This document shows positions 6,018 through 14,678 of a stretch of 38,909 nt of DNA, in pieces (the stretch's first letter is position 1; every line of letters starts with the position of its first letter). The stretch comes from Halanaerobium saccharolyticum (GTDB taxonomy: Bacteria > Bacillota > Halanaerobiia > Halanaerobiales > Halanaerobiaceae): NCBI RefSeq assembly GCF_003053565.1, contig NZ_QAXS01000029.1, positions 1 to 38,909 of the forward strand. The letters are read 5' to 3'. Below the pieces are notes generated by a model, which searched no databases, was not told the origin of the DNA, and worked only from the letters and a program-made list of their open reading frames with translations. Made by a program: the position numbers and the translations under genes.

Positions 6018-6815
6018 TTAAACTGAGAGCAGCATCCGATCATTATTGAATTTACCGCCATGTTTAATTTCAAACATTTTGAGCAGTTTTTCAATAGTCA
6101 GGTTTTCTTTTTCTTCACCCTGAATATCATAGATGATCTGGCCGCCATCCATCATAATTAGTCGGTTACCCATCTTAATTGCATCTTCCATATTATGAGT
6201 GATCATTAAGGTTGTAATATTATTACTATTGACAAGTTCTGCAGTTAGATTTTTTATTTTAATAGCAGTTGCAGGGTCTAAAGCTGCAGTGTGCTCATCT
6301 AATAGCAGTAATCTTGGATTAGCAACTGTGGCCATCAAAAGAGTTAGAGCCTGCCGCTGGCCTCCAGATAACAATTTTACTTTAGTTGTTAATCTTTTTT
6401 CTAAACCCAGGTCAATTTTTTCTAAATGTTTCTGCATTATCTCCCGCTTGTGCTTACTTAATCCCCATTTTAAAGAGAGATTATTTGACTTTGAGATAGC
6501 AAGAGAAAGGTTTTCTTCTATCGTCATCTCAGGAGAAGTTCCTGCCAGAGGGTTTTGAAAAACTCGACCAATTTTTTGAGCACATTTGTACTCTGTTTTG
6601 GCAGTAATATCTTCATCATCTAAAAAGATATTTCCATTATCAACCGGGAAGACACCTGCAATTGAATTTAAGAGAGTTGATTTTCCAGCTCCATTACTTC
6701 CAACAATTGTAATGAAATCTCCTTCATTTACAGTCAGATCAATTTTATTAATTGCCACATTTTCATTTGGAGTTCCTTTATAAAATATTTTTTCTAGATT
6801 TTTAACTTTTAGCAT
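6018..6815 (-). CDS. ABC importer ATPase (COG1101 type, partner of COG2984/COG4120)
   Basis: This nucleotide-binding subunit energises the importer encoded with the next two genes. It has 265 residues with Walker A GSNGAGKST at 39-47, signature LLSGGQRQAL and Walker B LLLLDEHTAALDP, all intact. The signature spacing and the HTAALDP variant fit the COG1101 subfamily, which in firmicutes pairs with a PF04392 binding protein. The ATG has GAGGTGAT 8 bases upstream and lies 7 bases after the permease stop. Members of this transporter family have been predicted to import tryptophan or other amino acids where a T-box precedes them. No T-box is recognisable here, so the substrate is unknown. Confidence 0.9.
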   Translation of the reverse strand: MLKVKNLEKIFYKGTPNENVAINKIDLTVNEGDFITIVGSNGAGKSTLLNSIAGVFPVDNGNIFLDDEDITAKTEYKCAQKIGRVFQNPLAGTSPEMTIEENLSLAISKSNNLSLKWGLSKHKREIMQKHLEKIDLGLEKRLTTKVKLLSGGQRQALTLLMATVANPRLLLLDEHTAALDPATAIKIKNLTAELVNSNNITTLMITHNMEDAIKMGNRLIMMDGGQIIYDIQGEEKENLTIEKLLKMFEIKHGGKFNNDRMLLSV

Positions 6816-6822
6816 TTTTTTA

Positions 6823-7689
6823 TCACCTCAATGCTTTTTTAATTCTTGGTGTTGATAAGAAAACTATTACTATAACTGCTGTTAAAAGTTTTAAATCAGA
6901 AGCAGCCAGCCCCAGATTTAAAGCAATTGATATACTAAAACGGTATAGAATAGAACCAATGATGACTCCGATAGTTGCAATCATAATTGACTTTTCGCCA
7001 ATTACTACCTCACCTATTATTACCGAAGCCAGACCAGCAACAATAGTACCAACACCCATGTTTACATCTGCAAATCCCTGATACTGTCCAACAAGAGCCC
7101 CAGATAGAGCAACTAAAGCATTAGAAATAATAAGCCCCAGCATTTTCATAGAATTTGTGCTGATTCCCATACTTCTAATCATTTGTGGATTATCTCCGGT
7201 AGCTCTTAAGGCAAAACCAATTTGAGTATTTAAAAATGCATCAAGTAAGAATTTAACTACTACTATCACCAGAATCAATAATAAAAGGTTATTCCAGGGA
7301 TAGGGAACACCTAGATCTCTAATGAATGAAAAAATAGTATCTTTTCCAATCAGTGGAATATTTGGCCTTCCCATTACCCGTAAGTTAATTGAATAGAGGG
7401 AGGTCATAGTTAAAATACCTGACAAGAGTGGAGCTATTTTTAGTTTTGTATTTAAAAACCCAGTTATAGCTCCTGCCATTCCACCAGCCACGACCGCTGC
7501 TGCAAGTGAATAAAAAGGATTAACCCCTGCAACCAGCAGCCGAGCTGAAACAGCAGCTCCCAGAGGAAGACTGCCGTCAACTGTCAGATCAGCAAAATCA
7601 AGAATCCTAAAAGATATAAATACTCCCAGGGCCATTATCCCGAAGGCAAGCCCCTGTTCTAACGACGTTATTGCAAAACTTAGATTCAT
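6823..7689 (-). CDS. ABC importer permease (COG4120 type)
   Basis: This is a membrane permease of the branched-chain/LivH-like superfamily, about 288 residues with some eight to ten hydrophobic segments. Its start, reading MNLSFAITSLEQGLAFG, is chosen at 7689 because AGGTG lies 4 bases before it. A GTG 12 bases upstream would place the ribosome binding site inside the gene. The segment RILDFADLTVDGSLPLGA matches the conserved N-terminal motif of this permease family. It sits between the binding protein and the ATPase with short gaps, a standard three-gene operon. Confidence 0.88.
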   Translation of the reverse strand: MNLSFAITSLEQGLAFGIMALGVFISFRILDFADLTVDGSLPLGAAVSARLLVAGVNPFYSLAAAVVAGGMAGAITGFLNTKLKIAPLLSGILTMTSLYSINLRVMGRPNIPLIGKDTIFSFIRDLGVPYPWNNLLLLILVIVVVKFLLDAFLNTQIGFALRATGDNPQMIRSMGISTNSMKMLGLIISNALVALSGALVGQYQGFADVNMGVGTIVAGLASVIIGEVVIGEKSIMIATIGVIIGSILYRFSISIALNLGLAASDLKLLTAVIVIVFLSTPRIKKALR

Positions 7690-7746
7690 AACACACCTCA
7701 CACCATTTCTAAACTACTTATTTTCTAGCTACTTATTTTTTTCGAA

Positions 7747-8727
7747 TTATTCCTGTGTAATTTCTTCATAAATAACATTTGCTCTATCCATTACAGCTGC
7801 TGGAATTTCCAGCTCAAGATTTTCAGCTGCTTTGGTATTTAAATATAATTTTAGCTCATCAGAAGATTCTACACTCATTTCAGCCGGAGATTCTCCATTT
7901 AATACTCTGGCAGCCATTTTCCCGGTTTGAATTCCAAGTAATTTGTAATCGATACCAAGGGTAGCAATTGCACCCTGTCTAACCTGTCCATTTTCAGAGG
8001 CAAAAACTGGAATCTTATTTTGATTTGTAATGTTTAAAACCGAAGGTAAGGCAGATACAATAATATTATCTGTCGGAACATAAATCGCATCAACATCTCC
8101 AATCAGCGAAGAAGTAGCAAGACTTACCTCACTGCTGTTGCTGACAGTACCTTCGTGTAAATTAATTCCCATTTCTGCAGTAGTTTCTTTAACTAGATCT
8201 ACCTGAACAACTGAGTTAACCTCACCTGGATTATAAAGCACACCTAGATCTGTTATTTCTGGAATAAATTCTTTAATTAATGCAATTTGATCAGCAACAG
8301 GATTCATATCTGTAGTTCCGGTTAGATTACCACCAGGCTGTTCCATACTTGCAACAATACCTGCTTCTACAGGGTCAGTAACAGCAGTAAATAATACAGG
8401 AGTATCAGTAATTACATTTGCTGCTGCCTGTGCATTTGGAGTTGCAATGGCTAAAACCAAGTCTAAATTATTACTTTTAAACTGCTGAGCTATAGATTGA
8501 GCAGTGGCAAAATCAGCCTGTGCATTTTGTACAGTAAATTCTACCATATCTTCAGTAAACCCTTCTTCCGCCAGCCCTTCAATAAAACCTTCTCTGGCTG
8601 CATCTAAAGCAGGATGTTCTACAAATTGAGAAATACCAATCTGATAATCCTGAGCCCCTACCTGAGCTGCTGTAAATACCAATAAAGCAAAAGTTAAAAT
8701 AAATAAAACTAAAATTTTCTTTTTCAT
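7747..8727 (-). CDS. ABC importer substrate-binding protein (PF04392, COG2984)
   Basis: This is the exported binding protein of the importer, 326 residues. A basic start (MKKK) and a hydrophobic core to about residue 25, ending AAQVGAQDY, indicate a type I signal peptide. There is no lipobox cysteine, so the protein would be released or held by its permease. Two alpha/beta lobes follow in the periplasmic-binding fold; IGISQFVEHPALDAAREGF at the start of the mature region is typical of the family. AAAGGGGA precedes the ATG. Expression is probably controlled by the structured leader upstream. Homologues are annotated as tryptophan or tyrosine importers in some clostridia, but nothing here fixes the ligand. 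Confidence 0.9.
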   Translation of the reverse strand: MKKKILVLFILTFALLVFTAAQVGAQDYQIGISQFVEHPALDAAREGFIEGLAEEGFTEDMVEFTVQNAQADFATAQSIAQQFKSNNLDLVLAIATPNAQAAANVITDTPVLFTAVTDPVEAGIVASMEQPGGNLTGTTDMNPVADQIALIKEFIPEITDLGVLYNPGEVNSVVQVDLVKETTAEMGINLHEGTVSNSSEVSLATSSLIGDVDAIYVPTDNIIVSALPSVLNITNQNKIPVFASENGQVRQGAIATLGIDYKLLGIQTGKMAARVLNGESPAEMSVESSDELKLYLNTKAAENLELEIPAAVMDRANVIYEEITQE

Positions 8728-8784
8728 TTTTTTATTCCCCTTTCTAACTGGTAGTGGGAATAAGAATAAATTTACTACTTAAAA

Positions 8785-8810
8785 TAAAAAAACACTCCTG
8801 GTGGAGTGTT
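8785..8810 (-). terminator. Regulatory terminator in the importer leader
   Basis: On the minus strand AACACTCC-ACCA-GGAGTGTT is followed by seven Ts. It lies about 58 bases upstream of the binding-protein start, inside the transcript, so it must be bypassed for the operon to be expressed. Confidence 0.88.
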
Positions 8811-8942
8811 AAAGATTCTGCTTTCTGCTTTAGTTTAAACAGGTTAATCTAAAAAAAGATATAAAAACCCCTTGTTTAAACAAAACTGAAGCTTCCCTAC
8901 AAATTTCTCCTACCGTATTACCATGCTACCAGTTATTTGATT
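8785..8942 (-). ncRNA. Structured leader RNA with intrinsic terminator upstream of the COG2984 importer; class unrecognised
   Basis: From the start predicted by the promoter at 8949-8978, about 157 bases are transcribed before a strong terminator. Within them are three GGTA repeats 8 bases apart, three UAG triplets (8928-8926, 8912-8910, 8899-8897) and a GUAGGGAAGCUUC segment. A long stem joins GUUUAAACAAGG to CCUGUUUAAAC around an AUCU/AGAU hairpin, followed by a GCAGAAA-GCAGAA direct repeat. The layout is that of a riboswitch or protein-controlled attenuator. I could not match it to a T-box, SAM, glycine, lysine, purine, FMN or cobalamin element. The GUAGGGAAG end recalls TPP riboswitches, but their other conserved parts are absent. 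Confidence 0.6.
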
Positions 8943-8948
8943 TTCTTT

Positions 8949-8978
8949 ATTATACTATTAATTTTGTACCTTTGTCAA
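8949..8978 (-). promoter_or_regulatory. Consensus sigma-A promoter for the ABC importer
   Basis: On the minus strand TTGACA (8978-8973), an 18-base spacer and TATAAT (8954-8949) give perfect hexamers. The promoter lies just downstream of the hutP-like gene and about 220 bases upstream of the binding-protein start, leaving the long leader. Confidence 0.88.
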
Positions 8979-9009: not shown

Positions 9010-9432
9010 CTAAGATTTATTATCAAGGAGTGAGCGGTGACTTAAGCCCACTGTTACCTCATTTAAGTTAAACATGCCGACACCAAAGAAAACAGCAACG
9101 ACAATATGCTCTCCGCTGCGGGCAACTCCAATCTTTCCACCTACATTTAAGCCCATAGTTCTAGGCATGATCTGGGTTACTGCATCATGGGCTGCTCCAG
9201 CAACCGCTCCCTGGGCTACATGGGATTCATCAATGATATTTTCCCGCTTAGCTGCAATAACAGCTCTTTCTATAATATCTGGGACTGATTTATTAAATTC
9301 ACCACCAAAATCGACTGCGCCAGTATTGATATCATCAGCTGCAAATTCTTTTTTTAATTTCTTTTCTTCACTTCTGGTAGAAATAGCCATTTTAATAGCT
9401 GCTTTTGCGGTTTCTAAACTATTATGTTCCAT
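9010..9432 (-). CDS. HutP-family RNA-binding antiterminator-like protein
   Basis: This 140-residue protein aligns by eye with Bacillus HutP, the histidine- and magnesium-dependent antiterminator of the hut operon. Shared stretches are DESH (His71), RTMGLNVGGKIGVAR, the hydrophobic VVAVFFGVG and the C-terminal VGLSH (His132). The second histidine of the Bacillus HxxxH pair is not at the same spacing: here glycine occupies that place and His82 lies further on. Ligand or metal use may therefore differ. The gene has GGAGG before its ATG and a TATAAT at 9468-9463. No hut catabolic gene is present. The next gene in the same direction is the ABC importer with an attenuator-type leader, so a regulatory link is a reasonable but unproven idea. 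Confidence 0.8.
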   Translation of the reverse strand: MEHNSLETAKAAIKMAISTRSEEKKLKKEFAADDINTGAVDFGGEFNKSVPDIIERAVIAAKRENIIDESHVAQGAVAGAAHDAVTQIMPRTMGLNVGGKIGVARSGEHIVVAVFFGVGMFNLNEVTVGLSHRSLLDNKS

Positions 9433-11456: not shown

Positions 11457-12782
11457 CTAAATGGTCTGATAGATATTAAAAAGCATAATAAATAATACAG
11501 CGGCCGGCACAATATATTTTAATAAAACACTATATATTTTACCAATATGAAAGCGGCTGTTTTTATTTGCTTCTTTAACTGCATTTTTGCTGCCCCAGAT
11601 ATGACCGACAAAGATTGAAGTTAAGATTCCACCTGTAGGTAAGAAAATGGAGTTTGAAAACCAGTCATAGGTATCTAAAACATCCATTCCTAAAAAACTA
11701 AAATTAGAAAACGAGCTGTATCCTAAAAGAGGTGGTATTCCAACTAAAAAGATTAAAAAGCCCATCAGATAAGAAGCTTTTTTTCGATTCCAGTTGTGTT
11801 CATCAACTAAAAAAGCTACAACTACTTCCAGCATTGAAATAGAAGATGTGAGAGCAGCAATTGTCAATAAAACAAAGAATATGACTGAGAAAAAGATACC
11901 AAAAGGCATCTGAGTAAAGACTGCCGGCAGAGTAATAAAAGTTAAGCCGGGGCCAGAAGCCGGATCAAGACCAAAGGCAAAAACGGCCGGAAAAATTGCG
12001 AAACCTGCCAGTAAAGCAACAGCTGTATCAAAGACTAAAACATAGGCGGCACTTTCATTAATGCTTTCCTTTTGACTTAAATAACTACCATAGGTTATCA
12101 TTGCTCCCATACCGAGACTTAAAGTGAAGAAAGCCTGAGAGATAGCATCAGCAAAGGTTTGAAAAGTAATAGCAGAAAAATCTGGTTTTAAGTAAAAACT
12201 TAAGCCCGCTCCCGCACCTTCAAGTGTTACAGAACGGATAATTAGTAAAAATATGATTCCAAATAAAATAGGCATTAAGATCTTAACTATTCTTTGGATT
12301 CCATTAACTACTCCAGCTCCAATTACAGCAATTGTAAGAAACATAAAAACCCCGTGCCAGATAATTGGCTCAGCAAGGCTGCTGATATGTGATCCAAAAA
12401 CTTCTGGGAAACTGCTTTCAGCAGTAAAAGTAAAAGATTTAAAAATGTAGGACATTCCCCAGCCGGCAACTACGGAGTAATAACTTAAAATTACAAAGCC
12501 GGATAAAACTCCAAGAGCACCAACCAGCGGCCAGCTAGAATCTGGAGCCATTTTTTTGAAGGCACCAATTGGATTTTTTTCTGTAAACCTTCCTAAAGAC
12601 ATTTCGGAGACTAAAATTGGATAACCAATAAATAATATTGCAGCTAAATAGATTAAAATAAAAATAGCCCCTCCATTTGTTCCAGTTATAAATGGAAAAC
12701 GCCAGATATTTCCCAGGCCGATTGCAGATCCTGAGGCAGCCAGAATAAATCCTAATCTGGAAGTCCAGTTTTCTCTTTTCAT
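11457..12782 (-). CDS. Neurotransmitter:sodium symporter family transporter
   Basis: This is a sodium-dependent amino-acid-type transporter of the NSS (LeuT-fold) family, 441 residues with about eleven membrane helices. The N-terminal TSRLGFILAASGSAIGLGNIWRFPF is the conserved helix 1 with its unwound sodium and substrate site. The helix 6 region is seen at TFADAISQAFFTLSLGMGAM. The substrate is not predictable by eye; bacterial members carry tryptophan, tyrosine, leucine or alanine. GGGAGG precedes the ATG. It is divergent from a second NSS gene across a 420-base control region. The two proteins share only family features, so they are not a recent duplication. Confidence 0.92.
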   Translation of the reverse strand: MKRENWTSRLGFILAASGSAIGLGNIWRFPFITGTNGGAIFILIYLAAILFIGYPILVSEMSLGRFTEKNPIGAFKKMAPDSSWPLVGALGVLSGFVILSYYSVVAGWGMSYIFKSFTFTAESSFPEVFGSHISSLAEPIIWHGVFMFLTIAVIGAGVVNGIQRIVKILMPILFGIIFLLIIRSVTLEGAGAGLSFYLKPDFSAITFQTFADAISQAFFTLSLGMGAMITYGSYLSQKESINESAAYVLVFDTAVALLAGFAIFPAVFAFGLDPASGPGLTFITLPAVFTQMPFGIFFSVIFFVLLTIAALTSSISMLEVVVAFLVDEHNWNRKKASYLMGFLIFLVGIPPLLGYSSFSNFSFLGMDVLDTYDWFSNSIFLPTGGILTSIFVGHIWGSKNAVKEANKNSRFHIGKIYSVLLKYIVPAAVLFIMLFNIYQTI

Positions 12783-13202: not shown

Positions 13203-14678
13203 ATGGAAGAGAATCGTGATCAATGGGGAACGAGACTTGGTTTTATTTTAGCAACAATTGGTTCAGCAGTAGGGTTGGGAAATATCTGGCGCTTTTCGTA
13301 TCAAGCGTATGAAAATGGTGGAGGTGCCTTTTTATTCCCCTATTTATTTGCATTAATAACTGCGGGTATACCATTATTATTACTTGAAATGGGATTTGGA
13401 TTTTTTACAAGAAACTCTGCACCAAGTTCTTTTCGTAAAATTAATGAGAAATTTGAATGGGTTGGCTGGTGGTCAGTATTAATTGCTTTTGTAGTAACAG
13501 TTTATTATATTGTTATTATTGCCTGGAGTTTATTATTTGTATTTGAATCATTTTCTTTGGGCTGGACTGCTGATCCAGAAGGATTTTTCTTCGGAGAATT
13601 TCTTAACTTTTCGGGTAGTGCTTTTGAATTAGGAGGAATTCAGTGGCCGATCTTTTTTGCTTTATTGGCGATCTGGTTAATTAATTATTTAATTATTGCT
13701 GGTGGAGTAGAGAAGGGGATTGAAAAAGCCAGTAAGATTTTTATGCCACTTTTAGCTGTGATGGTCTTAGTAATTGTCTTTAGAGGTGTTACACTTCCCG
13801 GAGCAATGCAGGGAGTTAAAGCATTTATAACACCTGATTTTTCCAAGATTTTAGATTGGAATATTTGGGTTGGGGCTTATGGTCAGATTTTCTTTACTTT
13901 AAGTCTCGGCTTTGGAATTATGATCGCTTATTCCAGTTATCTGCCTAAAAAATCGGATGTAGTGAAAAATGGAATTATAGCAGCTTTATCAAACAGCATT
14001 TTTAGTATTGTTGTTGGATTTGGTGTTTTTGGGATACTAGGTTATATGGCCGGACAGCAGGGTGTAGCAATTGGTGATGTTGCAACTTCTGGGATTGGAC
14101 TTGCTTTTATTGCTTTCCCAAAAGCTATTAACCTCTTACCCGGTTTACCGCAGATATTTGGTTTTGCATTTTTCTTTTCATTAACAATTGCAGGGCTTTC
14201 ATCAAGCATCTCATTAATTGAATCAGTTGTATCATCTTTGATTGATAATTTTAGTTTAAGCCGCAAAAAGGCTGTTACTTATGTTTCAATTGTTGGATTT
14301 TTACTTGGAGTACCAATGGTTACTCAGGGTGGTTTAGCTATTTTAGATATTGTTGATCACTTTGTTAATATTTTTGGTCTATTGGTAGTCGGTCTGGTAG
14401 AAATGCTGGTTCTAAGTTATGCCTTTGATTTAGATAAGATTAAAGATAATATGAATGTCAGTTCTGATCTTCATATCGGTGGTGGCTGGAAAACCATGAT
14501 TAAGGTTGTTGCACCTTTATTTATTGGTATTGGATTTATTCAGAATACTATTTCTGAATTTAGTGCAGCTTATGGTGGTTATCCAATGAGTGAACTTCTT
14601 ACTTTTGGTTGGCTGGTTGTAGCCTTACTTGTAATATTTGCAGTTATGCTCGGCAGAAACAGCAGTAACCGAGTTTAG
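13203..14678 (+). CDS. Neurotransmitter:sodium symporter family transporter
   Basis: This is a second NSS-family sodium-coupled transporter, 491 residues and about twelve membrane helices, slightly longer than its divergent neighbour because of a larger external loop around residues 125-150 and an extra C-terminal helix. The helix 1 motif is LGFILATIGSAVGLGNIWRF and the helix 6 region is WVGAYGQIFFTLSLGFG. The serine pair SLSSSISLIE in helix 8 fits the sodium 2 site region. A purine-rich stretch with GGGAGG lies 10 bases upstream of the ATG. The substrate is unknown. Sodium-coupled uptake suits a halophile; that link to lifestyle is inference. Confidence 0.92.
   Translation: MEENRDQWGTRLGFILATIGSAVGLGNIWRFSYQAYENGGGAFLFPYLFALITAGIPLLLLEMGFGFFTRNSAPSSFRKINEKFEWVGWWSVLIAFVVTVYYIVIIAWSLLFVFESFSLGWTADPEGFFFGEFLNFSGSAFELGGIQWPIFFALLAIWLINYLIIAGGVEKGIEKASKIFMPLLAVMVLVIVFRGVTLPGAMQGVKAFITPDFSKILDWNIWVGAYGQIFFTLSLGFGIMIAYSSYLPKKSDVVKNGIIAALSNSIFSIVVGFGVFGILGYMAGQQGVAIGDVATSGIGLAFIAFPKAINLLPGLPQIFGFAFFFSLTIAGLSSSISLIESVVSSLIDNFSLSRKKAVTYVSIVGFLLGVPMVTQGGLAILDIVDHFVNIFGLLVVGLVEMLVLSYAFDLDKIKDNMNVSSDLHIGGGWKTMIKVVAPLFIGIGFIQNTISEFSAAYGGYPMSELLTFGWLVVALLVIFAVMLGRNSSNRV

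Follow-up and report, generated by a model that had tools for sequence, protein, structure and literature searches.

What signal governs the ABC-importer operon of Halanaerobium saccharolyticum (8727-6018, minus strand), and how does the leader RNA ahead of it convey that signal? The window analysed here, the whole stretch of 38,909 nucleotides, had been predicted to hold an unclassified attenuator-type leader upstream of this operon, with a perfect promoter, GGTA repeats at 8-base spacing, a long bulged stem, a GCAGAAA repeat and a terminator ahead of the first gene. All of these sequence features exist, on the minus strand (Table 1). The leader promoter was the sole 12/12 site in the scanned region. 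The repeats, spaced at exactly 8 nt, form one cluster of three, of which two contain UAG and the middle one UAA (not NAG). The long bulged stem and GCAGAAAGCAGAA are both present, and the terminator hairpin AACACTCC-ACCA-GGAGTGTT (8810-8791) is followed by a T run. Visual inspection also showed a CCC/GGGG hairpin that covers the ribosome-binding site. When Rfam covariance models were run against the window, none, the T-box included, matched at gathering score, and the best match at relaxed thresholds reached E = 0.09 (23 bits vs 55 needed), in agreement with the unclassified status of the leader.

Table 1 Coordinates of the leader elements and of the genes flanking them.
Feature	Positions	Strand	Remarks
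Sigma-70 type promoter TTGACA-18-TATAAT	8949..8978	-	12/12 consensus; conserved genus-wide; TTGACA 8978-8973, 18-nt spacer, TATAAT 8954-8949
Three GGUA repeats, 8-nt period (GGUAGCAU GGUAAUAC GGUAGGAG), candidate binding site	8907..8930	-	Near-invariant in genus; period-8 enrichment near short hutP; repeat starts 8930, 8922, 8914
Third repeat GGUAGGAG, candidate antiterminator strand	8907..8914	-	Duplex with terminator 5' arm and loop, -10.3 kcal/mol
Variable spacer with long bulged stem and GCAGAAA repeat	8811..8906	-	Sequence unconserved; stem in most relatives
Intrinsic terminator AACACUCC(ACCA)GGAGUGUU and U run	8784..8810	-	
Possible Shine-Dalgarno hairpin UUCCC...GGGGAA	8735..8760	-	Loop CUACCAGUUA (8754-8745) is the complement of UAACUGGUAG (8935-8926)
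Short HutP-family gene, 140 aa, candidate regulator	9010..9432	-	PF09021; directly upstream of leader, same strand
ABC importer substrate-binding protein, predicted tyrosine-binding	7747..8727	-	PF04392
ABC importer permease	6823..7701	-	PF02653
ABC importer ATPase	6018..6815	-	PF00005

The leader had also been described as structured. Its elements exist, but the whole-leader fold was no better than that of shuffled sequence (z = -1.1), and structure is therefore not the informative property. Across 11 Halanaerobium genomes, there is almost no variation in the first ~40 nt, which comprise the three repeats and GGAGAA, or in AACACUCC...GGAGUGUU; between repeats and terminator both sequence and length vary. 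The long stem and GCAGAAAGCAGAA, present as predicted, diverge rapidly between species; being unconserved, the GCAGAAA repeat and the stem sequence were rejected as functional elements. A single copy of the pattern GGTAN4GGTAN4GGTAGGAG is present in the 3.2-Mb genome, and 15 other genomes of the order likewise have one apiece, while its reversed control gave 0 matches in the same order-wide scan. One additional triple-repeat match, from a more distant genome, fell within a low-complexity GGTAG tract. The triple repeat with GGAG is therefore no chance match, and the leader proves to be conserved in relatives. What is conserved is a linear repeat array and a terminator, rather than a folded aptamer.

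The original prediction had overlooked the HutP-family gene that precedes the leader (9432-9010). Its 140-residue product belongs to Pfam PF09021 (E=7e-45; 152.8 bits vs a curated cut-off of 25), and its AlphaFold model (pLDDT 83) matches the HutP structures 1vea, 1wmq (an RNA-bound structure) and 4ok9 with Z 14-16, the highest being 1vea at 16.4 and the next unrelated fold reaching 7.3. This was a match of fold: phmmer and profile searches of PDB sequences returned no HutP entry. Identity to Bacillus HutP is ~21% over the profile alignment, with a shorter loop. In B. subtilis HutP, His73, His77 and His138 are the residues that we take to form the L-histidine/Mg2+ site; according to the profile alignment, which is weak here, these positions read Gly75, Gly79 and Leu123 in the short protein, and Gly, Gly and Leu are invariant or near-invariant there. 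Most genomes of the order also encode longer PF09021 proteins; the present genome has two (contig C3, 132656-133042, and contig C7, 11115-11483; open frames of 163 and 263 aa), both conserved across the order.

The order hutP-leader-importer recurs in Halanaerobiaceae, in families f2 and f6 of the same order and, outside the class, in families f48 and f120; the class of genome G171 contributed one new locus of this arrangement (L314). Within f48, every genome in which the exact pattern turned up also has short HutP (G171, G278 and, judged by its locus, G472), and the f48 members sampled that had no short-HutP match showed no repeat pattern. The leader-bearing MAG behind locus L080 gave no short hutP match, possibly on account of an incomplete assembly.

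The ligand of the importer had been left blank in the original prediction, and the substrate-binding protein now suggests one. Its best PDB match is 6hni, the CD0873 protein of C. difficile, in which Glu-263 contacts the tyrosine hydroxyl and Tyr-279 excludes tryptophan; the tryptophan-binding SP1069 has Ala and Gln at these positions (PMC6816091). Glu245 and Tyr261 of the substrate-binding protein correspond to CD0873 Glu263 and Tyr279, and the same Glu and Tyr are kept in every leader-bearing homologue checked. Furthermore, the NCBIfam TrpX model scored 303.8, below its cut-off of 390. On the strength of these residues and of the sub-threshold TrpX score, tyrosine is the predicted substrate. 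Near the importer lie two PF00209 sodium:neurotransmitter symporter genes (11457-12782, minus strand; 13203-14678, plus strand). Bacterial members of PF00209 can carry aromatic amino acids, and the two genes may be part of the same physiology.

We then consider the relation between repeats and terminator. In most leaders GGUAGGAG, the last repeat, shows complementarity to both the 5' arm and the loop of the terminator. The duplex of GGUAGGAG with GGUAGGAGAA had a median of -9.9 kcal/mol in 38 leaders vs -3.6 for 191 other terminators of the same loci (Mann-Whitney p = 2e-18, relatedness ignored). Before the 3' arm of the terminator is made, pairing between the repeat region and the terminator 5' side reaches a probability of 0.8 or more in 15 of the 16 leaders examined, and for the third repeat of the window this probability is 1.0. 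Holding the repeats unpaired allowed the terminator to form in nearly all of the 16 leaders tested. Additionally, in the window's family and in f48, importer leaders carry a repeat-complementary sequence ahead of the start codon; the repeat/anti-repeat duplex amounts to -18.8 kcal/mol in the window, under all 200 shuffles, and to -24.8 at L244 (shuffle mean -13.8).

The leader is probably a protein-dependent transcription attenuator, in which binding of tyrosine-loaded short HutP to the repeats lets the terminator form and so shuts off the importer. Anatomy, conservation, association with short hutP, aromatic context, complementarity and the importer's Tyr-type residues are computed; the RNA binding, effector, repressing sign and translational control that we infer would operate as follows. 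The short HutP-family protein, with an aromatic amino acid bound (most likely tyrosine), would occupy the three GGUA repeats, which lie close to the transcript's 5' end, whereupon the terminator would form and transcription stop. Were the repeats free, GGUAGGAG would pair with CUCC-ACC in the 5' arm and loop of the terminator, allowing RNA polymerase to read through and the tyrosine importer to be made. In the read-through mRNA, free repeats could pair with the anti-repeat beside the ribosome-binding site and leave that site open; as a second tier, this pairing may couple the same signal to translation. The effector is taken to be aromatic, and probably tyrosine, because of the predicted importer ligand and the regulon described below. 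Tryptophan or phenylalanine is possible instead, since some operons are of a hutP-aroH-pabA/trpG-like type.

The main rival keeps the same HutP-like protein on the repeats and reverses the sign, with binding promoting read-through as in the hut operon of B. subtilis. Such a precedent exists: HutP with L-histidine and Mg2+ prevents terminator formation, acting on clusters of three NAG repeats (PMC7430163). In the present leader, however, the repeats are themselves the strand that competes with the terminator, and covering them should therefore favour termination. End-product repression, moreover, suits an importer and biosynthesis genes. We regard read-through as unlikely, although it fares best among the alternatives.

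If a short HutP-family protein reads the repeats, which genomes hold both? A short-HutP profile was run on 398 genomes sampled across the phylum and found short hutP in 228. Association was assessed at 76 short-hutP loci, the leader-bearing Halanaerobiales families being left out, over 400 nt upstream and 300 nt downstream of hutP. These intervals held 27 sense-strand GGTA pairs at 8 nt, vs 3.4 expected by scaling from the rest of the same loci, a maximum of 5 in 100 dinucleotide shuffles and 1 on the antisense strand, statistics that take no account of phylogeny, loci from related genomes not being independent. With all 256 tetramers ranked by period-8 excess, likewise regardless of phylogeny, GTAG came first (37, other periods giving 3.8), followed by GGTA (27, other periods giving 1.5). 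Exact repeats lie within these intervals at only 16 of the 76 loci, and many short-hutP genomes are thus without a recognised target; relaxed GGCA/AGUA variants with the same spacing occur in further loci with the same terminator type. Scanning the 398 genomes for the triple repeat gave 26 matches vs 6 for the reversed pattern. Five of the 26 (L284, L294, L295, L297 and L304) were discarded as coding or low-complexity sequence. Matches ahead of genes were present in 18 genomes, and all 18 encode short hutP.

A further layout was seen upstream of hutP in family f8 (L193, L194, L196, L198 and L202), where a repeat array lies ~100 nt before a second GGUAGGA(G) element; this element is flanked by complementary arms (CUUGGU...GCCAAG in L202) and followed by a terminator, a two-cluster arrangement reminiscent of hut mRNA.

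The distribution bears equally on TRAP (MtrB) as the protein that binds the leader. TRAP is encoded in this genome and in most of the order, and the leader does carry spaced UAG triplets. Described TRAP sites, however, consist of 11 U/GAG repeats spaced by 2-3 nt, compared with three at 8 nt here. Family f6 retains both leader and short HutP, yet five of its genomes gave no TRAP match; conversely, genomes that have TRAP and lack short HutP do not show the repeat pattern. The pattern is likewise missing from genomes of the order that have no short HutP. We therefore consider a role for TRAP at this leader very improbable.

The length of the leader, its stem and terminator, and the transporter downstream would also befit a riboswitch that binds a small ligand directly, as the original prediction had in mind. 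That idea loses its footing in the comparison of leaders. No structured aptamer is conserved, only repeats and terminator are, and the number of repeats ranges from 2 to 5. The middle stem is optional: it usually still folds (z as low as -3.3 in relatives, compared with -0.9 in the window), but some other families have almost none of it, the minimal form, L244, having 9 nt between repeats and terminator. With a HutP-family gene alongside and no Rfam match, a riboswitch is scarcely to be expected here.

The genes that follow repeats and hutP point to aromatic metabolism. Triple repeats precede DAHP synthase genes accompanied by pheA or tyrA, a hutP-aroH-hisC operon, aroH itself and Tyr-type importers. 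At 54 of the 76 hutP loci, the start of aroH lies less than 150 nt from the hutP stop; DAHP synthase (34 loci), hisC (17), pabA/trpG-like genes (16) and tyrA (13) also follow, and a recognised aromatic neighbour is absent at 18. Repeats directly precede the start codon of aroH in L285 and of the DAHP synthase gene in L307; no terminator was seen at either, which suggests translational control. Importer genes in f2 and f6 bear more GGUA-like repeats over the start codon, e.g. AUGGUAAUUAAUGGUAAG (L116, 1197-1172, minus strand; L121, 2076; L124, 2096), a possible second binding site for translation. GGUA-repeat leaders were also observed ahead of lyase-like or DctP-family transporter genes (L282, L283, L298 and L305), among them a beta-eliminating lyase of the tryptophanase/tyrosine phenol-lyase type (L283, 504-2027); these may be a branch of the regulon devoted to catabolism or transport, which was not expected.

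This gene content also weighs on the idea that short HutP controls histidine use and that the importer carries histidine, for which the protein's membership of the HutP family speaks. Searches for histidine ammonia-lyase found none in this genome and almost none in the rest of its family, the substrate-binding protein belongs to the Tyr type, hutP stands beside aroH at the loci counted above, and Gly, Gly and Leu replace the three histidines in the weak profile alignment. A histidine circuit accordingly has very little to recommend it. A T-box reading was set aside, there being no T-box match.

Beyond this locus, a widespread branch of HutP may well be an aromatic-amino-acid-responsive, RNA-binding attenuator that reads GGUA/GUAG repeats with a period of 8 nt and, in many Firmicutes, governs both the import of tyrosine and the biosynthesis of aromatic amino acids. 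The open-access literature searched held no description of such HutP-like aromatic attenuation, nor of any HutP role other than that of a histidine-responsive antiterminator. If the proposal is true, HutP would join TRAP as a general protein attenuator, the second of its kind, and its RNA code would be readable; the branch found in 228 of the 398 sampled genomes would sense an aromatic amino acid and read a different repeat; the control of aroH, DAHP synthase, pheA and tyrA in many Firmicutes would have a testable answer; and regulons would become predictable from sequence.

The proposed attenuator shares with Bacillus HutP and the hut operon the PF09021 family, the fold (Z 14-16), a UAG-containing cluster of three repeats and control at a terminator. 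It differs in its low sequence identity (~21%), its shorter loop and its lack of the residues presumed to bind histidine and Mg; the GGUA repeat with its 8-nt period lies on the antiterminator strand, and the linked genes are aromatic rather than those of histidine utilisation. In logic it resembles trp attenuation by TRAP, where bound repeats block the antiterminator so that the terminator forms, with a possible second, translational tier; the protein, however, is unrelated, there are about three repeats rather than eleven, their period is 8 nt and the target genes are others. In Streptococcus, a Trp T-box controls the homologous importer operon trpXYZ by attenuation (PMC9382623), whereas here repeats and a HutP-family gene take the place of a tRNA-binding leader. 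With the CD0873 tyrosine importer of C. difficile, finally, the present system has in common the specificity residues of the substrate-binding protein.
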